48,858 bases of DNA, from the NCBI GenBank assembly GCA_035574235.1, contig DATLZA010000099.1, positions 1 to 48,858 on the forward strand, read 5' to 3'. Shown here piece by piece: positions 1,075-11,944 of this stretch. How positions within the stretch are numbered: position 1 is the first letter of the stretch; the number at the start of each line of letters is the position of its first letter. The position numbers and the translations under genes are program-made. Source of the DNA: Planctomycetota bacterium (lineage in GTDB: Bacteria; Planctomycetota; MHYJ01; JACPRB01). Below the pieces are notes generated by a model that worked only from the letters and a program-made list of their open reading frames with translations, was not told the origin of the DNA and did no database searches.

Positions 1075-2441
1075 CGAAAGCGATCCTGGCGGCCATTCTC
1101 CAGGGAGCGGGGATCGCGGCGGAGTACCCGGGCGACGAAGGGATCGAAAAGGACCCGCGCGTCCTCTTCGTGGAGGATTTCGAGACGGGCGAACTCCGCG
1201 AAATCGCGGAACGGTGGAGCAACGCGCGTTTCCTGGAGCACATGAGCCTTTCCGGGGACGTGGCGGAGACTTCGCCGGGATCGCGCTCGCTCCGGATCGT
1301 CGCCGGGCCCGAGGGGCTCAAAGGCCCGGGCTGCCGGGGCGGGCATCTCTTCACCCACGTGCGGCCGGGCGATGTCCTCCACGCCCGATTCTACGTAAAG
1401 TTCCATGAGCGCCACGGATACGTGCACCATTTCGTCTCGCTCATCGCCGACCGCTCGCCGACCCCGTGGCCCAAGGGCTGGGCGGGACGCCGGCCCCCGG
1501 GCGATTCGCACTTCCTCAGCAACCTCGAGCCCTGGAGCCGCTGGGGGAAGGACGCTCCGCCGGGAGTCTGGAATTTCTACAGCTACTGGCAGGAGATGAA
1601 GCCCGACGGCCGCGGAGATTACTGGGGGAATTCGTTCATGCCGCCGGAGCCGACTCCCGTGGAGCGCGGCCGCTGGATCTGCGTCGAAGCGCGGGTCAAG
1701 GCCAACTCCGCTCCCGACGCGGCCGACGGCGAGCAGGCGTTCTGGATCGACGGCCGGCTCGCCGGCGAATTCCGGGGAATCCGCTGGAGGTCCACGGACC
1801 GGTTGAAGCTGAACGCCTTCTGGCTCCAGTACGACGTGGATGAGCGGACCCCGCGGCACAACAACGACCCGGATCCGGGCGCGCGCGCCTACGAGGTCTG
1901 GTTCGACGACATCGTGCTGGCCACCGAGTACATCGGACCGGTGCGCGGCCGTCCCCGGAACGGCCGCAAGGCCGCCGTTCCCTCGCGAAGCGCGCTCCAC
2001 ACCGGGCACATCGTGCCTCCGTCCCCCGGACGGGTGATCTTCGCCGAGCGCTTCGACGAGGGCCCGGGCCGGTTCCGCGGCGGCCGCGTCTCCGAGGGAT
2101 CGTTGGAACTGGCCCCCGGCGGAACGGAAGTGTGGGGCGCCTACTCCGTCCGCGCCGGCGAGACGACGTCGCTTCGCTTCCGCCTGCGGCCGACGGCGGA
2201 TGTCGGCGCGGCGACGGCGCTGATCTGGTCCGAACGCCTCCGGGACAACGCCCGCTTCTCCATCACGGGCCTCCGGAAGGGCGAGTGGAGAACCGTGGAA
2301 ATCCGCGTGAGCGATCTCCGGGCCGGAGCGCCCGGAAACGAGGCGACCCTGGAGGGCGAAGTCCTCAACAACTTCAGGCTCGCCTTCGACGGCCCGCCGG
2401 AGGCGCGCCTGCTTCTGGACGACTTCGAGGTCCGCGAGTAG
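1071..2441 (+). CDS. Secreted ConA/polysaccharide-lyase-like protein
   Basis: 456 residues. A short hydrophobic start (MTKAILAAILQGAGIAA) suggests a weak signal peptide. Residues about 20-285 look like a concanavalin-like jelly-roll domain of the kind seen in polysaccharide lyases: an F-V-E-D-F-E opening, H-A-R-F-Y-V-K-F, a Y-V-H-H-F-V-S-L strand, a W-N-F-Y-S-Y-W-Q-E-M segment, an F-W-I-D-G-R-L hairpin and a closing V-W-F-D-D-I-V-L-A. Residues about 320-456 are a second beta-sandwich related to the C-terminal domain of the upstream FecR protein (shared I-W spacing, D-N-x-R-F, and a final L-D-D-F-E-V). It is coupled to that gene by a 4-base overlap. Carbohydrate binding or cleavage is a reasonable guess from the folds, but I recognise no catalytic signature, so the function is left open. 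It ends 7 bases before the convergent nitrilase-like gene. Confidence 0.75.
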   Translation: MTKAILAAILQGAGIAAEYPGDEGIEKDPRVLFVEDFETGELREIAERWSNARFLEHMSLSGDVAETSPGSRSLRIVAGPEGLKGPGCRGGHLFTHVRPGDVLHARFYVKFHERHGYVHHFVSLIADRSPTPWPKGWAGRRPPGDSHFLSNLEPWSRWGKDAPPGVWNFYSYWQEMKPDGRGDYWGNSFMPPEPTPVERGRWICVEARVKANSAPDAADGEQAFWIDGRLAGEFRGIRWRSTDRLKLNAFWLQYDVDERTPRHNNDPDPGARAYEVWFDDIVLATEYIGPVRGRPRNGRKAAVPSRSALHTGHIVPPSPGRVIFAERFDEGPGRFRGGRVSEGSLELAPGGTEVWGAYSVRAGETTSLRFRLRPTADVGAATALIWSERLRDNARFSITGLRKGEWRTVEIRVSDLRAGAPGNEATLEGEVLNNFRLAFDGPPEARLLLDDFEVRE

Positions 2442-2448
2442 CGTCCGT

Positions 2449-3585
2449 TCAGGGCCGCAGTTCCTTCAGCCGATCGCGGGCGGCGCGTTCGATCCACGTC
2501 CCCGGAAATTCCTCCCGAAGCGCCTCGAACGCGCGGATCGCCTCTTCGCGCTTTCCCTCCCGCTGGAGCTCCGCCGCCCGGCGATACCGTTCGTCCCCCG
2601 TGGCATGGGCGGCGCGGGCGATCCGGATCACGCGTTCGACGGGGACCGGCAGGGGCGCCTTGGCCAGCACGGGCGGATCCGGGTCGGTCAGGATGCCGAA
2701 GGCCTGCGGGGAGCGTTCCCGGAAGAGGCGGGCGCGCATGTCGCGCTGGCGGTTGAACGCGTCGCCCCCTTCCCGTCCACCGAAGGGATCGATGTCGGCC
2801 ACGGCCAGAGTGTCCGGACCCGGAGCTTCCGCGAGGATCCGTCCCTGCGGGGAGATCACCAGCGATCCTCCTCCCCGGTGGGCGACCACGAGGTAGACGA
2901 AATTCTCCACGGCTCGGGTGCGGAAGGCGGCCCGGCTGATGTCGGCGTCCCCGATCGCCGCTCCGCCGAGCGTCGGATGAAAGATGATGTCGGCGCCGGC
3001 CAGGGCGAGGCACCGGGGAGCTTCCGGAAAGACCATGTCATAGCAGATCAGCATCCCCACGGCGCCCAGGTCCGGCGTGGGAAACACCGGAAACTCCGTG
3101 CCGCGTCTCTTGTCTTGTTCCTGGAGCGGCAGATTCACCTTGCGGTAGCGCCCGATCTCGCGGCCGTCGCGTCCGAGGAGGAAGGCGGTGTTGGAAACGG
3201 CCCCTTCCTCGAAGGTGTCGCTGCAGCAGACGAGATACAGGCGATGGCGCGCGGCGGCGCGGCCGAGCCGCTCCAGCATCCGGCGGACCGCCTCGGGCAG
3301 AATCTCGGGCAACCGCTCCGGCCGTGCGTCCTCCCACCGGCCCAATCCCGGCGTGTCTTCCGGCAACGCGACGGCCGCGGCCCCTTCGGCGGCCGCCCGG
3401 TCCACCAGACTCTCGAGCGCCGCGAGATTCCGGTCGACGGCCGCCAGGATTTCCTCCCGGGCCTCGAGGCGCGGATCGACGAACCGCGCCGCGGGGGAGA
3501 CCGCCGCCACGCGGACGGCGCCTTGGCGGGGGCCCGGCGACTCCTGCGCGGCCAGGGAGGCCAGAACGAAGGCGAGGGCGACCAT
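2449..3585 (-). CDS. Exported nitrilase-superfamily amidohydrolase with C-terminal TPR-like tail
   Basis: 378 residues. The carbon-nitrogen hydrolase fold is clear and all three catalytic residues are visible: Glu76 (in A-L-P-E-D), Lys149 (Y-R-K-V-N-L-P) and Cys181 (M-L-I-C-Y-D). The family hydrolyses amides or nitriles and is usually cytoplasmic; here residues 1-14 (M-V-A-L-A-F-V-L-A-S-L-A-A-Q) look like a signal peptide, so it probably acts in the periplasm. The last 45 residues form a helical hairpin with E-E-A-I-R-A-F, like a TPR unit, which is not part of the enzyme fold. I chose the ATG at 3585 because AAGGAG lies 6 bases upstream; an in-frame start at 3603 lacks such a site. That ribosome binding site lies in the 3' arm of a 14-bp inverted repeat (3586-3639). 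It is the last gene of the sulfatase run and faces the upstream gene pair convergently. Confidence 0.85.
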   Translation of the reverse strand: MVALAFVLASLAAQESPGPRQGAVRVAAVSPAARFVDPRLEAREEILAAVDRNLAALESLVDRAAAEGAAAVALPEDTPGLGRWEDARPERLPEILPEAVRRMLERLGRAAARHRLYLVCCSDTFEEGAVSNTAFLLGRDGREIGRYRKVNLPLQEQDKRRGTEFPVFPTPDLGAVGMLICYDMVFPEAPRCLALAGADIIFHPTLGGAAIGDADISRAAFRTRAVENFVYLVVAHRGGGSLVISPQGRILAEAPGPDTLAVADIDPFGGREGGDAFNRQRDMRARLFRERSPQAFGILTDPDPPVLAKAPLPVPVERVIRIARAAHATGDERYRRAAELQREGKREEAIRAFEALREEFPGTWIERAARDRLKELRP

Positions 3586-3639
3586 GGGCGGCTCCTTCCC
3601 CAAAACGCTTCCGAGAGTCTAAAGCGGAAGGAGCCGCCC
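3586..3639 (-). repeat. 14-bp perfect inverted repeat over a ribosome binding site
   Basis: Bases 3626-3639 (GGAAGGAGCCGCCC on the + strand) are the exact reverse complement of 3586-3599, with a 26-base loop. In the minus-strand transcript the 3' arm contains AAGGAG and ends directly at the ATG of the nitrilase-like gene, so the stem would hide the ribosome binding site. A competing 6-bp pairing exists between 3625-3630 and 3608-3613, which would break the long stem. No T-tract follows, so a simple rho-independent terminator is unlikely. Confidence 0.7.
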
Positions 3640-3656
3640 GCGTGGGCTCCCTTCGG

Positions 3657-4454
3657 TCAACGGACGCACTCGGCGACGAAATCGAGGAACATCTTCCAAG
3701 ACCGCCGATCCGCCTTCTCGCTGTAGGCCGCGCCTCGGGACGGGTCGTTCCCGGCCTCCGGGACGGTGAAGCTGTGAACGGTGCCGCCGAAGGAAACGAA
3801 CTGCCAGTCCACTCCCGCGTCCCTCATTTCCTTCTGGAAGGCCAGAACCGCCTCGTCCTTGATGAAGGGATCGTCGGCGCCGTGGAAGGCGATGATCCTG
3901 CCCTTGATCTGCCGCGCGTCGGCGGGATGGGGCGTCGCGAGGTCCGCGTGGAAGGCGGCGGCGCCGGCGATGGGCGCGCCGCTGCGGGCCAGCTCCAGGG
4001 CGCAGGTGCCGCCGAAGCAGTATCCCATGGCGACGACGCGCGCGGGATCGCAATGGCGCGCGAGCACCTCCAGGGCGGCGCGGGCGCGGCCCCGCATGAG
4101 GGCGCGGTCGCTCTTGTACATTCCGGCCAGGCGGGCGGCCTCCTGGTGGTCCTTGGCGGTCACGCCTTTTCCGTAGATGTCGGCGGCGAAGGCCGCGTAA
4201 CCCGCGCGCGCCAGCTGCTCGGCGCGGCGCCGGACGTACTCGTTGTGCCCTTTCCACTCGTGAAAGACAAGGACGCCGGGAAGCCGGCCGGACGCCCCCC
4301 GCGGAAGGGCCAAATACCCCTCGAGGAGAACGTCTCCGTGGCGATATTCGATCGTGCGGGTCTCGATCGGGCCGTCCGCGGGGGAACCGGAGCCCGAGGC
4401 GGCGCATCCGAGTCCGGCGGTCAGAACGGCGGGAATCAGGCCTCTCAGGTTCAT
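3657..4454 (-). CDS. Dienelactone hydrolase family protein, exported
   Basis: 265 residues, alpha/beta-hydrolase fold of the dienelactone hydrolase family. The Cys-Asp-His triad is present: Cys146 in G-Y-C-F-G-G, Asp194 or Asp195 in H-G-A-D-D-P-F, and His227 in T-V-H-S-F. The H-E-W-K-G-H segment near residue 68 fits the family's oxyanion region. The first 20 residues are hydrophobic and reach a cysteine at position 17 (G-L-G-C), which may be a lipoprotein site, though the residue at -3 is not typical. The ATG at 4454 is preferred over a GTG two codons upstream because AGGAGG lies at the right distance. The family cleaves lactones and esters; the true substrate is unknown. It lies between the DUF1080 gene and the nitrilase-like gene on the same strand, which suggests a shared catabolic role. 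Confidence 0.85.
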   Translation of the reverse strand: MNLRGLIPAVLTAGLGCAASGSGSPADGPIETRTIEYRHGDVLLEGYLALPRGASGRLPGVLVFHEWKGHNEYVRRRAEQLARAGYAAFAADIYGKGVTAKDHQEAARLAGMYKSDRALMRGRARAALEVLARHCDPARVVAMGYCFGGTCALELARSGAPIAGAAAFHADLATPHPADARQIKGRIIAFHGADDPFIKDEAVLAFQKEMRDAGVDWQFVSFGGTVHSFTVPEAGNDPSRGAAYSEKADRRSWKMFLDFVAECVR

Positions 4455-4462
4455 GGGCACCT

Positions 4463-4476
4463 CCTCCTTTCGGAGG
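4463..4476 (-). promoter_or_regulatory. Short GAAA-loop hairpin at a ribosome binding site
   Basis: In the minus-strand RNA, CCUCC-GAAA-GGAGG folds into a 5-bp stem capped by a GNRA-type tetraloop. It overlaps the purine-rich stretch used by the dienelactone hydrolase gene. A second AGG follows directly, so ribosome access may be only partly affected. This could be chance in GC-rich DNA. Confidence 0.35.
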
Positions 4477-4530
4477 CGCCATGGTAGCGCGCCCGGGACG
4501 TTTGCGCCAGAGGCGCGCGGCCCGCAGGTC

Positions 4531-5154
4531 TTACAGCCGCTTGATCCAGAGATTCCGGAAGCGCACCTTCGCGCCGTGATCCTGGAAAAGGATCGGCCCC
4601 GGCTGGGGACCCTCGGGTTTCCCGGCCCCCGTTTTATCCTTGAGCTCGACGTCGTCGTGGACCTTCTCTCCGTTCCAGACGACCGTAATCCGGGCGTTTT
4701 CGATCTTCTTTCCGGAGGCGTCGAACCGGGCGGCCCTGAAGGTAATGTCGTAACTCTGCCATTCGCCCGGCTTGCGGGACATGTTCCGGTCCGGCGCCCG
4801 CTGCTTGTAGAGGGATCCGCAGCCGTTCGGACGCGGCTCCTCGCCCCAGGAATCCAGGATCTGCACTTCGTAGCGCCGCTGAAGGTAGACCCCGCTGTTG
4901 CCGCGGGCCTGATCCTTGGCTCCTTCCGGCGAAGGGGGAATGCAGAACTCGACGTGCAGCACGAAATCCTGATACGTCTCGCGGGTCATCACGCTGCCTT
5001 TGCCCACCTCCAGGACCCCGTCCGCGACGGGCCACGCACAGGGCCTTCCGTCCTCATGAACGAGCTGCGAGGCATCCAGCACGACGGCCCCTTCCGGGGG
5101 TCGGCCGTCCTGAAGCGCCCACCCCGCCACCAGCGCGACAAGCCATCGATTCAT
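4531..5154 (-). CDS. DUF1080 (3-keto-disaccharide hydrolase-like) secreted protein
   Basis: 207 residues with a short signal peptide (M-N-R-W-L-V-A-L-V-A-G-W-A). The sequence follows the DUF1080 pattern: W-P-V-A-D-G-V-L-E-V near residue 41, then Y-Q-D-F-V-L-H-V-E-F, the G-N-S-G-V-Y-L-Q-R-R-Y-E-V-Q-I-L-D-S strand run, W-Q-S-Y-D-I-T-F, and an N-A-R-I-T-V-V-W-N-G hairpin. The domain is a concanavalin-like jelly roll and is strongly expanded in planctomycetes. Some members hydrolyse 3-keto-glycosides; others may bind carbohydrate. It starts 15 bases after the third sulfatase, with GGAGGA upstream of the ATG, so it belongs to that operon. The Gfo/Idh/MocA oxidoreductase in the divergent set could in principle make 3-keto sugars, but that link is inference. 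Confidence 0.88.
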   Translation of the reverse strand: MNRWLVALVAGWALQDGRPPEGAVVLDASQLVHEDGRPCAWPVADGVLEVGKGSVMTRETYQDFVLHVEFCIPPSPEGAKDQARGNSGVYLQRRYEVQILDSWGEEPRPNGCGSLYKQRAPDRNMSRKPGEWQSYDITFRAARFDASGKKIENARITVVWNGEKVHDDVELKDKTGAGKPEGPQPGPILFQDHGAKVRFRNLWIKRL

Positions 5155-5169
5155 GACTCCTCCGCGTTT

Positions 5170-6642
5170 CTACGGGCGCGACCGTCCGGCCGCCCGGATC
5201 TTCTCGAGCAAGGCCCCGAGGTCGGAGGCGATCTCGGGCCGCTCGGAAGCCAGATTCTTCGTCTCTCCCGGGTCCTCCTCAAGATTATAGAGCTCGCCCG
5301 GCCTGGGGCCTTGCGGAGGGATGTATTTCCAGGCTCCCTTGCGGAGGGCCAGGCCTCCCGCGTGCACGACCAGATGGTCCCTCCCCTCCTTCGACTCCCC
5401 GACCAGCGCCGCCAGAACGTTCAGACTGTCTGGCCCCGCGGAAGCCGGCAGCGGCCGGCCCGTCAGGGCCGCGAAACTCGCCATCAAGTCCACCTGACTC
5501 ACGACGGCGCGGGACACCCCGGGCCGAATCCGGGCCGGCCACCGCGCAATCAGCGGCACCCGGGTGCCGCCCTCATGGAGACTGTACTTTCCGCCCCGCA
5601 GCGGGCCCGCCGGCCGGTGGCCGTTGAGATCCTCCACGGCCCGGTCCGCATACCCGTCGTCGAGCACCGGCCCGTTGTCGCTCGTCACCAGGACGAGCGT
5701 GTTGCGCGCCAGCCCCAGCCGGTCGAGCGCCGCCGTCACCTCCCCCACGAGCGCGTCGAACTGATGGATCACGTCCCCCCGCACCCCGCAGCCGCTGGTC
5801 CCGGCGAAGCGCGGGTGCGGAACGCGGGGCACGTGGATGTCGTGGGCGGCAAGGAAAAGAAAGAAGGGACGGTCTTTGTGGCGCTCCATGAACTCCACCG
5901 CCTTGCGGGAAAAGACGTCCGACATGTCCTCGTCCACCCATCGGGCCGCCTTCCCGCCCGCCATGAAGCCGATCCGGCTGATGCCGCGGACGATCGTTCC
6001 GTCGTGCCCCTTCGAAAGCTTCATCCGGAGAAGCTCGGGATTCTCCTTCCCCGTCGGCTCGTCGCCCACCTTCCGCGCGTAGCTCACCCGGATCGGGTCG
6101 GACGGATCCAATCCCACGACGCGCCGGTTCTCCACATAGACGCAGGGCACCCGGTCCCCCGTCGCGGGCATGAGAAAGGCGTAGTCGAATCCGATCTCGA
6201 GCGGACCCGGACGGATCTCTCCGTTCCAATCGAGGTTGCCTGAGCCGAGCCCCAGGTGCCATTTTCCCACCACGCCCGTCGCGTACCCCGCCTCCTTGAG
6301 GATCGAAGCCAGTGTGGGCCTCCCGGGCTCGATGATAAGGGCCGCGTCCCCCGGAAGAATGCCCGTCCCCTTCCTCCTCCACGCGTACTCGCCCGTCAGA
6401 AGCGCGTACCGGGAGGGCGTACAGGTGGCCGACGGCGCATAGGCGTCCGTGAAGCGCAATCCCTCGGCGGCCAGCCGATCGACGTTCGGCGTGCGGACGC
6501 GCACGGCTCCGAAGCAGCCCAGATCGCCGTACCCGAGATCGTCGGCGTAAACGAGGACGATGTTGGGGGGCGGCGGATCCTGCGGCGAGGGCGCCAGAGA
6601 AAGCGCCGCCGCGGCCAGAACCCCTCCGAAGAATCGCTTCAT
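5170..6642 (-). CDS. Sulfatase (formylglycine type), third in operon
   Basis: 490 residues with signal peptide (M-K-R-F-F-G-G-V-L-A-A-A-A-L-S-L-A). Alkaline-phosphatase-like sulfatase fold: metal-binding N-I-V-L-V-Y-A-D-D-L-G-Y near residue 27, the modification motif C74-T-P-S-R with the L-T-G that follows, G-K-W-H-L-G, and T-S-D-N-G-P. Cys74 would be converted to formylglycine. The family removes sulfate esters, and planctomycetes use it on sulfated polysaccharides. It starts 31 bases after the second sulfatase and is followed after 15 bases by the DUF1080 gene. It differs from the other two in its serine-and-threonine modification motif and in lacking their shared W-R-R-S-V-G-A-Q tail, so it probably has another substrate. 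No formylglycine-generating enzyme or anaerobic maturase is visible in the window. Confidence 0.92.
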   Translation of the reverse strand: MKRFFGGVLAAAALSLAPSPQDPPPPNIVLVYADDLGYGDLGCFGAVRVRTPNVDRLAAEGLRFTDAYAPSATCTPSRYALLTGEYAWRRKGTGILPGDAALIIEPGRPTLASILKEAGYATGVVGKWHLGLGSGNLDWNGEIRPGPLEIGFDYAFLMPATGDRVPCVYVENRRVVGLDPSDPIRVSYARKVGDEPTGKENPELLRMKLSKGHDGTIVRGISRIGFMAGGKAARWVDEDMSDVFSRKAVEFMERHKDRPFFLFLAAHDIHVPRVPHPRFAGTSGCGVRGDVIHQFDALVGEVTAALDRLGLARNTLVLVTSDNGPVLDDGYADRAVEDLNGHRPAGPLRGGKYSLHEGGTRVPLIARWPARIRPGVSRAVVSQVDLMASFAALTGRPLPASAGPDSLNVLAALVGESKEGRDHLVVHAGGLALRKGAWKYIPPQGPRPGELYNLEEDPGETKNLASERPEIASDLGALLEKIRAAGRSRP

Positions 6643-6673
6643 GAATGCCTCCGGGTTCGTCTTCGAGCGCCCG

Positions 6674-8137
6674 TCATCGGGCGGTGTCGGGACGCCGCGC
6701 GGCCGCGTCCATCGCCCGCCGCCAGGCGGCCAGCCGGGGAGTCATCTCGGCCGCGGTCGCCCCCGGCCGCAGCCGCGAGACGTCCGTTTCCTCGTAGAGA
6801 ACGCGGTGAAGGGCGGGATCGAAGTCCGGATTGGGCGCATTCTCCTGCGCCCCCACCGAACGGCGCCAATCCGCCAGCTTCCGCCGCAAGTCCTCCGCCC
6901 GCGCGGCTTCCCGGGCGGATCTGTCGTCGGCTTCCCCGAGATCCCGTGCCAGGTCGAAAAGCTCCACCCGGCCGTCTTCGTAATGCTCCACGAGCTTCCA
7001 GTTCCCTTCCCGGATCGCCCCCGCGGGACGGCTTCCCTGGTTCGTGTAGTGCGGAAAATGCCACGCCAGGACGCGCGGCGCCGGCCGCCCGCGGCCCGTC
7101 CAGAGCCCCGCCAGACTCACACCGTCCAGACCGTCCGGCGCCTTCACGCCCGCCAGCTCCAGAAGCGTCGGCATGAGATCCGTGTTGACGAAAGGTTCGT
7201 CCAGCACCCGGCCGGCGGGGATCCGTCCCGGCCAGCGGACCAGGAACGGCACGCGGAGCCCCCCCTCGTAGAGAAAGCCCTTTCCGGCCCGGTACGGCGA
7301 GTTGTGGGTGGGAGCGTCGTCGCGACCCTCGGGCACGTGCAGGCCGCCGTTGTCCGACGTGAAAAGGACGATCGTCCGCTCGCGAAGGCCCAGCTCCTCC
7401 ACCGTGCGCAGGACCCGTCCGACCGCGTCGTCCATCGTCTCCATCATGGCGGCATACACGGGATGAAAGGTTTCCCGAAAGGCCGCGACGCGCTCCGGCC
7501 GGGCCGCCAGCGGAATGTGCGGCGTATGGTGCGCGAGATAGAGAAAAAACGGGCGCGACCGGTTTTCGCGGATGAACGTCTCGGCCCGGGCGGTCAACTC
7601 GTATTCCCCCTTGCCTCCCTCCGCGGCCGACGGCGTCGTGTTCCCGCGACCCGCGAAGACGACCTCGAACCCCTGCGCTTCCGGGCCGAACCCCCGACCG
7701 CCCAGATGCCATTTGCCGAGGGCCGCCGTGGCCCAGCCCGCCTCCCGCAGAATCTCCGCGAGCGTCCGCTCCTCCAGCGGCAATTCCATTCGGATCTTCG
7801 GATGCAGCAGCTTCTGGGACCGCGCGTCCGGACGGCCCGGAAGAAACGTGGTCAGGTGAAGGCGCGCCGGCGCCTTCCCCGTCAGGATCGCCGCCCGCGA
7901 CGGCGAGCAGATCGGCTGGGCGCAGTAGGCGGACGTAAACCGCAGTCCTTCCGCCGCCAGGCGGTCGAGATTCGGCGTCCGATGCTCGGTGCGCCCGTAG
8001 CAGCCCAGATCGTGGACGCCCAGATCGTCGGCCAGGATGAGAATGATGTTGGGCCGGGCGCCGGCGTCCGCCCGGTCCGGCGGGGGAGCCGAGCAGGAAG
8101 CGACAGCCCCGAGCACGATCAGAACGAACCGGTTCAT
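6674..8137 (-). CDS. Sulfatase lipoprotein, second in operon
   Basis: 487 residues. The N-terminus carries a lipobox (V-A-S-C, Cys15), so it is probably anchored by lipid. Sulfatase features: I-I-L-I-L-A-D-D-L-G, modification motif C77-S-P-S-R, G-K-W-H-L-G-G, and T-S-D-N-G-G. Its C-terminal region contains the W-R-R-S-V-G-A-Q-E-N-A-P-N-P-D-F-D stretch, close to the end of the preceding sulfatase, so the two are paralogues; this one has an extra 50 or so residues after it. The ATG overlaps the stop of the upstream sulfatase by 4 bases (ATGA, 8134-8137), indicating coupled translation. Long same-frame extension upstream of 8137 runs through the neighbour in another frame and is not real. Confidence 0.92.
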   Translation of the reverse strand: MNRFVLIVLGAVASCSAPPPDRADAGARPNIILILADDLGVHDLGCYGRTEHRTPNLDRLAAEGLRFTSAYCAQPICSPSRAAILTGKAPARLHLTTFLPGRPDARSQKLLHPKIRMELPLEERTLAEILREAGWATAALGKWHLGGRGFGPEAQGFEVVFAGRGNTTPSAAEGGKGEYELTARAETFIRENRSRPFFLYLAHHTPHIPLAARPERVAAFRETFHPVYAAMMETMDDAVGRVLRTVEELGLRERTIVLFTSDNGGLHVPEGRDDAPTHNSPYRAGKGFLYEGGLRVPFLVRWPGRIPAGRVLDEPFVNTDLMPTLLELAGVKAPDGLDGVSLAGLWTGRGRPAPRVLAWHFPHYTNQGSRPAGAIREGNWKLVEHYEDGRVELFDLARDLGEADDRSAREAARAEDLRRKLADWRRSVGAQENAPNPDFDPALHRVLYEETDVSRLRPGATAAEMTPRLAAWRRAMDAAARRPDTAR

Positions 8138-9495
8138 TTCGGTCCCCCAGGGTCGTAGTCCGGATTGGGCGACGGCATCTGCGCGCCGACGGACCGGCGC
8201 CATTCCGCCAGAAGGTCCCGAAGCTCGCGCGCCGCGTCCGGCCGCCGTCCGGCCAGATTCTCGCTCTCGCCCGCATCCCGCGCCAGGTCGTAAAGCTCGA
8301 GACTTCCGTCCTCGTACGATTCGATCAGCTTGAGATCCCCGCGGCGCACGGCCCCATAGGGGGTCGCGCCCCCCGGATGATAATGCGGATAATGCCAGAA
8401 GAGGGCGGTGCGGGAAAGTCCGCCCGATCCGCGAAGAAGCGGCGCGAGGCTGACCCCGTCCACGATCCGCCCGGCCGGAACCTGGAGACCGGCAAGCTCC
8501 AGAAGCGTGGGATAAAGGTCCATCGTGATGACGGGCGTTTCCAGGACGCTCCCCGGGGGTCCGATCCCGGGCCCGCGAACGATCAGGGGCACCCTGACGC
8601 CGCCCTCGTACCAGGAACCCTTGCCGGCCCGGAGCGGCCGGTTCGAGGTGCTCGAGACGAGTCCCCCGTTGTCCGAGGTGAAGACGACGACCGTGCGGCC
8701 GGCGATTCCCGACTTCTCCAGCGCCTCCAGGATGCGTCCCACCGCGGCGTCGAGGCTTTCGATCATGGCCGCGTAGACGGGCTTGAAGGGTCCGCTCCCC
8801 TCGGCGGCCGCCTTGCGCTGATACTTCTCGATCAGCTCCTTCTTCGCCTGCAACGGCGTGTGCACGGCATGGAAAGGGACATAGAGAAAAAACCGCCGAT
8901 CCTTGTTCCGCTCGATGAAGCGGGCCGCTTCTTCCCCCTCCCGGTCGGTCAGATACTCCCCCCGGGGCCCGTCCGGAAGCGTCGGAATCCCGTACGGCGA
9001 AAAATAGCTCGGCGGCTGGCCGCGATGGCTGCCGCCCAGGTTCGCGCCGAATCCGTGCTTCTCCGGAAAGTACGCCTCTCCGCCCAGGTGCCATTTGCCG
9101 ATCGAGGCGGAGACGTAGCCCGCCGCGCCGAGCGCCTCGGCGAGCGTCACCTGCTCCAGCGGAAGGTGCTTCGTCCAGTCCGGCACCCGCAGCCTGGCCT
9201 TGGGCCGCGCGTGTCCCGGAATCCAGTCCGTCACGCGCAGCCGGGCGGGATACTGGCCCGTCAGGAGGGCCGCGCGCGTGGGCGAGCAGACGGTGCAGGC
9301 GGAATAGGCCTGCGCGAACCGCACCCCGCCGGCCGCCAGACGGTCGAGATGCGGCGTCTCGTAGAAGCGGCTCCCTGTGCATCCCAGATCCGCCCAGCCG
9401 AGATCGTCGGCCAGAAGGACCACGAAGTTGAGCTTGTCCTCGGCGGGGAGCGCTTCCCCGGCGGCCAGAAGGGCCACAAGAGCGAGAAACCTCAC
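8134..9495 (-). CDS. Sulfatase, first gene of operon
   Basis: 453 residues from the GTG at 9495, which puts the hydrophobic V-R-F-L-A-L-V-A-L-L-A-A-G segment at the N-terminus as a signal peptide. The frame stays open further upstream, but those residues are arginine-rich and unlike the family. Motifs: N-F-V-V-L-L-A-D-D-L-G-W, modification motif C70-S-P-T-R (the canonical C-x-P-x-R), G-K-W-H-L-G-G, and F-T-S-D-N-G-G. The end (W-R-R-S-V-G-A-Q) is shared with the next sulfatase. It is transcribed away from the cytochrome gene; the 100-base gap should hold both promoters. No convincing ribosome binding site precedes the GTG, so the exact start is uncertain. Confidence 0.88.
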   Translation of the reverse strand: MRFLALVALLAAGEALPAEDKLNFVVLLADDLGWADLGCTGSRFYETPHLDRLAAGGVRFAQAYSACTVCSPTRAALLTGQYPARLRVTDWIPGHARPKARLRVPDWTKHLPLEQVTLAEALGAAGYVSASIGKWHLGGEAYFPEKHGFGANLGGSHRGQPPSYFSPYGIPTLPDGPRGEYLTDREGEEAARFIERNKDRRFFLYVPFHAVHTPLQAKKELIEKYQRKAAAEGSGPFKPVYAAMIESLDAAVGRILEALEKSGIAGRTVVVFTSDNGGLVSSTSNRPLRAGKGSWYEGGVRVPLIVRGPGIGPPGSVLETPVITMDLYPTLLELAGLQVPAGRIVDGVSLAPLLRGSGGLSRTALFWHYPHYHPGGATPYGAVRRGDLKLIESYEDGSLELYDLARDAGESENLAGRRPDAARELRDLLAEWRRSVGAQMPSPNPDYDPGGPK

Positions 9496-9550
9496 CCCTG
9501 TATCAACACGCCGTCCTCTGTCCCCGTTGCGCCGGACCGCACGAACGCTT

Positions 9551-9570
9551 CCGGAAAAAGCGCTTTCCGG
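9551..9570. repeat. 7-bp inverted repeat in divergent intergenic region
   Basis: CCGGAAA at 9551-9557 and TTTCCGG at 9564-9570 are perfect inverted arms with a 6-base spacer. It lies between the sulfatase operon (-) and the cytochrome operon (+), just upstream of a -10-like TAAGAT. Position and symmetry fit an operator, but no regulator is known here. Confidence 0.4.
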
Positions 9571-9582
9571 GAGGCGGTGTCG

Positions 9583-9588
9583 TAAGAT
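9583..9588 (+). promoter_or_regulatory. -10-like TAAGAT just upstream of the cytochrome gene
   Basis: TAAGAT ends 7 bases before the ATG at 9596, which would place transcription start at or next to the start codon. No Shine-Dalgarno sequence is present, consistent with a leaderless mRNA. I cannot see a good -35 box. Confidence 0.4.
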
Positions 9589-9595
9589 AGCGCCC

Positions 9596-11944
9596 ATGCC
9601 GGTGCTCCTCGGGCTCCTTCTGGCCGCGCAGGCGGAAAAGCCCGGCCTTCTCCTTGAGGCGCGGGATGCCGAGCGCCGCGTCCTTCTCGCCGTGCCGGTT
9701 CCGAACTTCACGCTCCGGGAGAACGAGTCCCTCCATCCCCGCCTCTCTCCGGCCTTCCGCGCGACGTGGCGGGGCTGCCTCAAGATCGTGCGCGCCGGCC
9801 GTTACGTCTTCTCCGGCGAAGCCCGCATCCGCGTCGCGGGCCGGGATGCGTCGGAGGGCCCGATCGAGCTGGCCGCGGGCCTTCACGAACTGCGGATCGA
9901 CTTCGAGCGGGAGCCCGGCCGCCCGGCGCGGCTGCGGGTCGAGTGGGAATCCGATCACTTCCGGCGGGAACCCATCCCTTCCTCCGCCTTCGTGCGCCGG
10001 GAGGATCCGCCCGTGGAGGAAACGCTCGCCGAACGCGGACGGGACCTGGCCGGCGAGCTGGGATGCATCAACTGCCATCGGACCGAGTCGGCCGGGTTCG
10101 TTCCCCGGCGGGGCCCCGACCTGACGCACGTGGGTTCGCGCACGAACGCCCGGTGGCTGGCCCTGTGGATCGAAGATCCGCGGGCGCTGCGACCGGACGC
10201 CGCGATGCCGGCGATGCTCGAACGCCGCGAGGCGGCCGACGTGGCGGCGTTCCTGGCGCAGCGGCGCGAGGCGCGGCCCGCCCCTCCGATGCCGCCGCCG
10301 GACCCGGCGCGCGCCGCCCGGGGACGCGAGCTTTTCGGAAAGATCGGCTGCGCGCAATGCCATCCGGGCGGGCTGGACGGCCTGGGATCCAAATACGAAC
10401 CCGGCACGCTTCGGGACTACCTTCGGGATCCCCTCCAAGTCAATCCCTCGGGCCGGATGCCGTCCCTTCTCCTGAGCGAAGACGAGGCCTCGCTCCTGGC
10501 GGAACACCTGACCGCGTCGCGCCACCCGGCCGTCGAGGCGAGCGCGCCTCCCGCCGGCGACGCCGCCCGGGGCCGCCGGCTCGTCGAAACGCGCGGGTGC
10601 CTGTCCTGTCACCCGCTCGAGGGGACCGAAAACCGTTCCCGGGCGCCGGATCTGACCCTTCTGGCGGACGGCCGCGGATGTCTGGCGCCGGAGCCGGGCC
10701 CCGGCCTGCCCCGCTACGGCCTGGACGAGGAACGCCGTCGCGCTCTGGGCGCCTTCCTGTCCTCCCTCAAGGCCGGCCCGGACCGCTCCGAGGCGCCCGT
10801 TCACGCCTTCTCCCAGGCCGTGCGCGCCTACCGGTGCACGGCCTGCCATGCGCTCCATGATTCGACCCCCCGCGGCCTGGACGCCTATCCGCCGGCGCTC
10901 ACGGACGCCGGGCTCAAGCTCCGTCCCGCCTGGATCGAAGCGGTGCTGCTTCACCGCAAGCGCATCCGGCCCTGGATGGAGGCCAGAATGCCCCACTTCG
11001 GCGAGGGTCTCCGCCGCCTCGCCGGCGCGCTGCCGGCCGCCGCCGGAGCCGGCCCGGAGGACCCGCCCCGGACGCCGACCCGTGAGGAAGTGCGCGAGGG
11101 CATCCGCCTCATCGGCCGCGGCCGGGGCGGTCTCTCGTGCATCACGTGCCACGACTTCAAGGGCCACGCCTCCCTCGGCACGCGCGGGCCGGACATGGTC
11201 GAAATGTACGCGCGTCTCCGCGAGGACTGGTTCCGCCGCTGGATGCGGGATCCGATCCGCCTCCAGCCGGGCACGTCGATGCCGAACTTCTTCGCCTCGG
11301 TCCCGGAGGCCGAGGCGGAGCGCGCGATCGACCTCCTCTGGGCGTGCCTGGCCGCCGGAAGAGAGATGCCGCTTCCGGAGGGCATCGAGGCGGCCCATTC
11401 GCATCTCGTTGTCGTGCGCGAAACGCCCGTGGTCCTGCGCACCTACCTTCCGGACGCTTCTCCCGCGGCAATCGCGGTGGGACTGCCGGGCGGAGTGTCC
11501 TACGGCTTCGACGCCGAATCCTGCTCCCTTCGATACGCCTGGATGGGAGACTTCCTCGACATGACGCCCGCCTGGAGCGGCCGCGGGGGCCTGCCGGCCA
11601 TTCCCGGGGGGAAACGTTTCTATACCGCACCCGACGGCTTCCCGTTCCACTTCGGGGGACGGCCGGTCGCCCGACCGCGATTCCGCGGGTACGTCCTCGT
11701 CGCGGGACACCCGGAATTCCGGTACGAAGCGGACGGCGTTGAAATCCGGCAGAGCGTTTCTTCCCTGCCGTCCGGCCTGGAGCTGCACTTCACGCTTTCC
11801 GGAGTCCGGGAACCTGTGGAATTCCGGGTCGGTCGGCCGGCCGGAGTCCGCCTCACGCCCTCGGAGGGAACCCTGGAAGGCGAATGGCTGCGCCTCGGGA
11901 CGACAGCGACGTTCCGCCTGAAAATCGAGAAGGAGAAGCCGTGA
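9596..11944 (+). CDS. Pentahaem c-type cytochrome with PA14-like N-terminal domain
   Basis: 782 residues with a very short signal peptide (M-P-V-L-L-G-L-L-L-A-A-Q-A). Residues about 35-120 resemble a PA14-type beta domain (A-G-R-Y-V-F-S-G-E-A-R-I-R-V, then L-R-I-D-F-E-R). Five haem c sites follow: CINCH at Cys157, CAQCH at 252, CLSCH at 335, CTACH at 414 and CITCH at 515. Methionines in A-M-P-A-M, R-M-P-S-L and S-M-P-N-F could be sixth ligands. Residues about 600-782 are a separate beta-rich domain. The protein should carry electrons in the periplasm. A 4-base overlap (GTGA, 11941-11944) couples it to the dehydrogenase-like propeller, so the two probably form one oxidising complex. The chosen start sits 7 bases after a -10-like box; the longer open frame upstream overlaps the divergent sulfatase and is rejected. 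Confidence 0.9.
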   Translation: MPVLLGLLLAAQAEKPGLLLEARDAERRVLLAVPVPNFTLRENESLHPRLSPAFRATWRGCLKIVRAGRYVFSGEARIRVAGRDASEGPIELAAGLHELRIDFEREPGRPARLRVEWESDHFRREPIPSSAFVRREDPPVEETLAERGRDLAGELGCINCHRTESAGFVPRRGPDLTHVGSRTNARWLALWIEDPRALRPDAAMPAMLERREAADVAAFLAQRREARPAPPMPPPDPARAARGRELFGKIGCAQCHPGGLDGLGSKYEPGTLRDYLRDPLQVNPSGRMPSLLLSEDEASLLAEHLTASRHPAVEASAPPAGDAARGRRLVETRGCLSCHPLEGTENRSRAPDLTLLADGRGCLAPEPGPGLPRYGLDEERRRALGAFLSSLKAGPDRSEAPVHAFSQAVRAYRCTACHALHDSTPRGLDAYPPALTDAGLKLRPAWIEAVLLHRKRIRPWMEARMPHFGEGLRRLAGALPAAAGAGPEDPPRTPTREEVREGIRLIGRGRGGLSCITCHDFKGHASLGTRGPDMVEMYARLREDWFRRWMRDPIRLQPGTSMPNFFASVPEAEAERAIDLLWACLAAGREMPLPEGIEAAHSHLVVVRETPVVLRTYLPDASPAAIAVGLPGGVSYGFDAESCSLRYAWMGDFLDMTPAWSGRGGLPAIPGGKRFYTAPDGFPFHFGGRPVARPRFRGYVLVAGHPEFRYEADGVEIRQSVSSLPSGLELHFTLSGVREPVEFRVGRPAGVRLTPSEGTLEGEWLRLGTTATFRLKIEKEKP

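Follow-up and report, generated by a model that had tools for sequence, protein, structure and literature searches.

Riboswitches and attenuators can hide the Shine-Dalgarno (SD) sequence in a stem, and RNA thermometers also hold the SD in a stem. SD-occluding intercistronic structures are described in translationally coupled genes, including phage f1 VII/IX and E. coli rpmI-rplT (PMC12548453). In phage f1, coupling reportedly disappeared on moving the stop codon far upstream of the hairpin (+89 nt) and persisted with the stop at +62 nt, a position from which the upstream gene still ran over part of the hairpin (PMC12548453). An SD-occluding hairpin is an already known kind of element.

A hairpin of this kind was analyzed in a 48,858-nt stretch of Planctomycetota bacterium DNA (GenBank assembly GCA_035574235.1, contig DATLZA010000099.1, positions 1–48,858), referred to here as the window. 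It is encoded by the minus strand, where a 71-nt gap separates a dienelactone-hydrolase-like (DLH) gene (3657–4454; PF01738, E 6.3e-47 for 3657–4460) from a co-directed downstream nitrilase-like (carbon-nitrogen hydrolase) gene (2449–3585; PF00795, E 1.9e-29). In minus-strand order, the DLH stop codon (3659–3657) is followed by 17 nt, the 5′ or anti-SD arm GGGCGGCTCCTTCC (3639–3626), a loop of 26 nt (3625–3600), the 3′ arm GGAAGGAGCCGCCC (3599–3586), and the ATG start codon of the nitrilase-like gene (3585–3583). This start was picked by the gene-calling script and adjoins the stem directly. The arms are 100% complementary (14/14 paired), without a wobble or a compensated pair. The whole AAGGAG of the nitrilase-like gene (3597–3592) and its complete 6-nt spacer (3591–3586) are inside the 3′ arm.

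Computed folding gives the long stem with its loop −35.6 kcal/mol, and each base of the nitrilase-like gene SD has an unpaired probability of at most 0.0013 in the folding ensemble. The original prediction that a perfect 14-bp stem hides this SD is thus borne out, and occlusion of the SD is very likely in the RNA as computationally folded. The stem is like SD-hiding riboswitches and attenuators in holding the SD, but has no sensor domain, Rfam match, or convincing fold that frees the SD. It is like RNA thermometers in placing the SD stem just before the start codon, although a perfect GC-rich 14-bp stem of this energy looks far too stable for melting at growth temperature. It also resembles the ribosome-binding-site structures of the translationally coupled pairs in PMC12548453, but differs in lying wholly past the upstream stop codon, and coupling at this locus is hypothetical.

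The best explanation, with a probability of roughly 0.45, is a static SD-occluding hairpin in the DLH–nitrilase gap that damps independent translation of the last gene in its run. The stem would close over AAGGAG and the spacer in the transcript and stay closed. With the stem closed, ribosomes would seldom initiate alone at the nitrilase-like gene and the protein level would be low. Alternatively, nitrilase would be made mainly when the stem is forced open, for instance by a ribosome continuing past the upstream gene or by a trans factor. The exact fall of the stem over the SD and spacer, with the SD predicted to be paired in essentially the whole ensemble, argues for a static hairpin. Both the damping of nitrilase translation and its selection are what we infer from the locus. 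The strong SD is odd for a gene intended for weak expression.

Gene context also supports a static hairpin. Six co-directed genes, encoding three sulfatases, a 3-keto-disaccharide hydrolase, the DLH, and the nitrilase, form a tight run with gaps of −4 to 76 nt, and the nitrilase-like gene is the last of them. A common transcript for the DLH and nitrilase-like genes is therefore plausible. A promoter scan found no sigma-70-like promoter in 2300–9900. The neighboring DLH gene also has its SD in a stem (leader at 4455–4480, minus strand; nine pairs, one of them G-U; hairpin −18.8 kcal/mol). Opening the DLH SD and start costs 17.8 kcal/mol, rank 13 among 597 sampled genes.

A ribosome reaches about a dozen nucleotides past a stop codon. 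The stem begins 17 nt past the DLH stop codon, so its simple unfolding by an upstream ribosome is doubtful; neither upstream coding sequence nor a terminating ribosome overlaps it. With simple opening by that ribosome unlikely, the remaining options are damping and opening of the stem by a trans factor or a moving ribosome.

The original prediction also held that the long stem and a 6-bp alternative are two exclusive folds, and so a translational switch. The 6-bp stem (3630–3625 with 3613–3608, minus strand, spanning 3608–3630; CTTCCG/CGGAAG) is present and does use part of an arm of the long stem, but it is weak, with −5.0 kcal/mol alone. When it is forced, the total is −32.8 vs −45.0 kcal/mol, a cost of about 12 kcal/mol. 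Five loop-side base pairs of the long stem are displaced, and its other 9 bp stay. This frees GGAAG of the 3′ arm, including three of the six SD bases, and leaves GAG and the spacer closed. Because 9 bp remain, the 6-bp stem is mostly compatible with the long stem. The alternative stem exists but does not free the SD as proposed, and exclusive folding as a sign of a switch is not borne out.

A second competing hairpin, AAGGGAGCC (3654–3646) with GGCTCCTT (3637–3630), spans 3630–3654 on the minus strand. Before the 3′ arm exists, nascent RNA prefers this early hairpin together with an inner hairpin (−21.2 kcal/mol). This preference favors a bistable RNA switch, in which the early hairpin or the 6-bp stem would exchange with the long stem and free the SD under some condition. 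When the growing transcript is folded, the long stem takes over as soon as the 3′ arm is transcribed. Of 2000 shuffles, 347 equal the early hairpin in pairing strength. Along the path found, refolding from it into the long stem crosses a barrier of ~10 kcal/mol, which is small for a trap. Nine bp stay shut when the 6-bp stem forms, the gap offers little sensor space, and the window has no Rfam family match at gathering scores. We consider a bistable switch very improbable. No competing fold was found that frees the SD beyond chance strength, as the 6-bp stem and the early hairpin both fail, and nothing points to a switch driven by a ligand, temperature, or fold exchange. Two related candidates were rejected. 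A three-arm attenuator (3654–3646, 3639–3626, and 3599–3586) has an outer pairing no better than chance in the same shuffles, and a known RNA family was ruled out by the missing Rfam match in the window.

Rarity of the stem was assessed in the window and in a sample of the genome. The window contains no other perfect inverted repeat of at least 11 bp (loop 3–60), and stems of at least 14 bp occur at 0.05 per shuffled window (40 dinucleotide shuffles). The genome sample was the window plus 40 stretches, 694,366 letters in all (~17% of the genome); two stretches were without letters. Genes were called with a simple codon-and-SD script, which yielded 597 genes with usable leaders. Only the nitrilase-like gene has an SD-covering perfect stem of at least 10 bp. 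Shuffled leaders of all 597 genes give 0.8 expected at 10 bp or longer and 0.03 at 14 bp or longer. The cost of opening the nitrilase SD and start is 25.5 kcal/mol, the highest of the 597 (median 9.0, second 22.2). Random same-genome 54-mers placed before the nitrilase SD formed a 14-bp stem in 2 of 150,000 draws. These results favor the static hairpin. Computation thus establishes the stem, its position, its predicted folding dominance, and how rare it is within the portion of the genome sampled.

The main rival, and a serious one, is a palindrome made by chance or mutation, for example by a replication template switch that copied the ribosome binding site in reverse. Such a palindrome would have no selected function and may lower translation without being regulation. 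As a class, SD stems match expectation, with 4 observed vs 2.97 expected at 9 bp or longer among the 597 genes, and this lack of enrichment in the sampled genome also counts against a static hairpin. Scaled to roughly 3,500 genes, itself an estimate from 597 genes per 694 kb, about 0.05 such stems are expected per genome by chance, so a chance origin is conceivable over many scanned genomes. Perfect arms, free of wobble and compensated pairs, fit this origin. The single-gene rarity in random draws and the precise placement on SD plus spacer do not, and we judge an accidental palindrome somewhat unlikely. The 14-bp SD stem is unusual, and its rarity falls short of proving selection in a multi-genome scan.

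Other repeats were surveyed in the same sample and genome. The 694 kb as a whole contain 5 perfect stems of at least 14 bp vs 1.0 expected. The longest perfect inverted repeat is at L066:2054–2118 (19 bp, 27-nt loop), within a called gene. A genome-wide SD-stem theme was rejected: an apparent excess at 238 genes (4 vs 0.8 at 9 bp or longer) vanished with 597 genes and more shuffles. The exact 5′ arm sequence has one further site in the genome (contig C58), and with up to one mismatch it has 37 sites in all vs 17 for the reversed control. Searching the genome with 101 bp spanning the locus gives the self-match alone (E 0.001), so the locus is single-copy and a dispersed repeat element was ruled out.

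Conservation was examined through a related-locus search, which returned 16 loci. Thirteen orthologues, about 38–70% identical, were examined; those left out were a partial match (L045) and two archaeal loci that are 30–36% identical (L046 and L047). The leader of L131 is identical to that of L034, whose title is Planctomycetota, and the pair was counted once. In the orthologues, every in-frame candidate start preceded by 70 nt of sequence was tested. At none of these starts was an SD-covering perfect stem longer than 8 bp found in the 13 orthologues, the longest being 8 bp. One of four candidate starts of L039, a TTG, needs 29.5 kcal/mol for opening, more than the 25.5 kcal/mol of the window, with a perfect stem of only 4 bp. 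This cost counts against the reading that nothing similar exists.

The gene pair itself was not found elsewhere, either in the related nitrilase loci or in seven DLH loci of class genomes. The related nitrilase loci have no match to the DLH protein (tblastn, E 1e-5). DLH occurs in 8 of 23 class genomes, its own included, at E 1e-35, and no nitrilase is present within roughly 1.5 kb downstream in the other seven. A nitrilase orthologue was found at E 1e-45 in its own genome only among the 23 class genomes. At E 1e-60 one was found in 2 of 392 sampled phylum genomes, its own and that of L131, with up to five first-look candidates scored per genome. No close relative with a DLH–nitrilase gap was found among the 16 related loci, 23 class genomes, and 392 phylum genomes. 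The orthologue leaders and the seemingly unique gene pair may count against a static hairpin, and the lack of visible conservation would suit an accidental palindrome. Absence of the stem from distant orthologues in other gene contexts is weak evidence against function. The nitrilase-like gene is patchy in its distribution. Copies that are 57–66% identical occur in MAGs titled Verrucomicrobia, Planctomycetota, Pirellulales, Isosphaeraceae, and Latescibacterota, and at E 1e-45 the remaining 22 class genomes have none.

The stem could also be a 3′-end element of the DLH message, acting as an exonuclease barrier or as an unusual terminator without a T-tract, with overlap of the nitrilase SD as a side effect. 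Its high stability and its position shortly past the DLH stop codon are in keeping with this. Intrinsic terminators are likewise GC-rich hairpins past a stop codon, but this stem has no T-tract on either strand, a 26-nt loop, and a start codon directly after it. A canonical intrinsic terminator was ruled out on the missing T-tract, as had been argued originally. A terminator-like scan lists nothing in the gap, with a loop limit of 8 nt that makes this stem undetectable by it. The genome sample has eight intergenic perfect stems of at least 12 bp, seven besides this one. Five of the seven have loops of 4–10 nt, and their tails, read by eye, are three clear T-runs and two of TTT only. Judging by the three short-loop stems with clear T-runs, terminators of the ordinary type seem to be in use in this genome, which counts against an unusual one here. 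A 3′-end element is improbable overall. The remaining two stems (loops 3 and 25 nt) are without a T-run, like the stem studied. A 15-bp perfect intergenic hairpin with a 3-nt loop and no T-tract was observed at L128:13363–13395.

A different start codon would change the meaning of the stem. The sole in-frame candidate besides the ATG is a TTG at 3603–3601, in the loop. If translation truly began there, the 3′ arm would be coding and the stem would span the early coding region. Besides being in frame with the nitrilase-like gene, the TTG gives a longer N-terminus that gains a lysine before the hydrophobic stretch, where the ATG form lacks both Lys and Arg (read by eye). The sulfatase, DLH, and 3-keto-disaccharide hydrolase N-termini carry such Lys or Arg residues, also read by eye. 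AAGGAG precedes the ATG with a spacing of 6 nt, and the TTG lacks a good SD; among the three start codons, TTG is the weakest. Translation from the TTG is highly improbable.

A sigma-54 promoter at the 5′ arm, an idea taken from a likeness to a leader on contig C53, was rejected. The motif TGGCAC-N5-TTGC has no site on the contig of the window, and the GG of the −24 consensus element is absent at the stem. In this genome, the motif has 21 exact matches vs 7 for the reversed control. Three of the 21 (L092, L093, and L100; contigs C23, C53, and C111) carry CTCCTT..AAGGAG as an inverted repeat in the interval from the −12 element to the SD, followed by genes that by eye are ClpB-like, response-regulator-like, and cytochrome-c-like. 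Sigma-54 transcripts begin roughly 12 nt past the −12 GC, which would put the CTCCTT arm largely upstream of the RNA, so the meaning of these repeats may be at the DNA level.

The 14-bp stem is real and locally exceptional, and the claim of a switch is unsupported. A perfect stem over an SD alone does not make a switch, and alternative folds should be tested for whether they truly free the site. Translational control in Planctomycetota seems, to our knowledge, little studied, and a literature search on riboswitches and Shine-Dalgarno with Planctomycetes found only work on other bacteria. As a long shot, the strong SDs of the DLH and nitrilase-like genes could both be locked, by nine pairs with one G-U and by 14 bp, and opened together by a trans factor, for example a small RNA, an RNA helicase, or an RNA-binding protein. 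The end of a polysaccharide-degradation operon in Planctomycetota would then be under post-transcriptional control. If a static hairpin does damp translation here, the locus would offer a clear example from nature in which a very strong stem masks a very strong SD.
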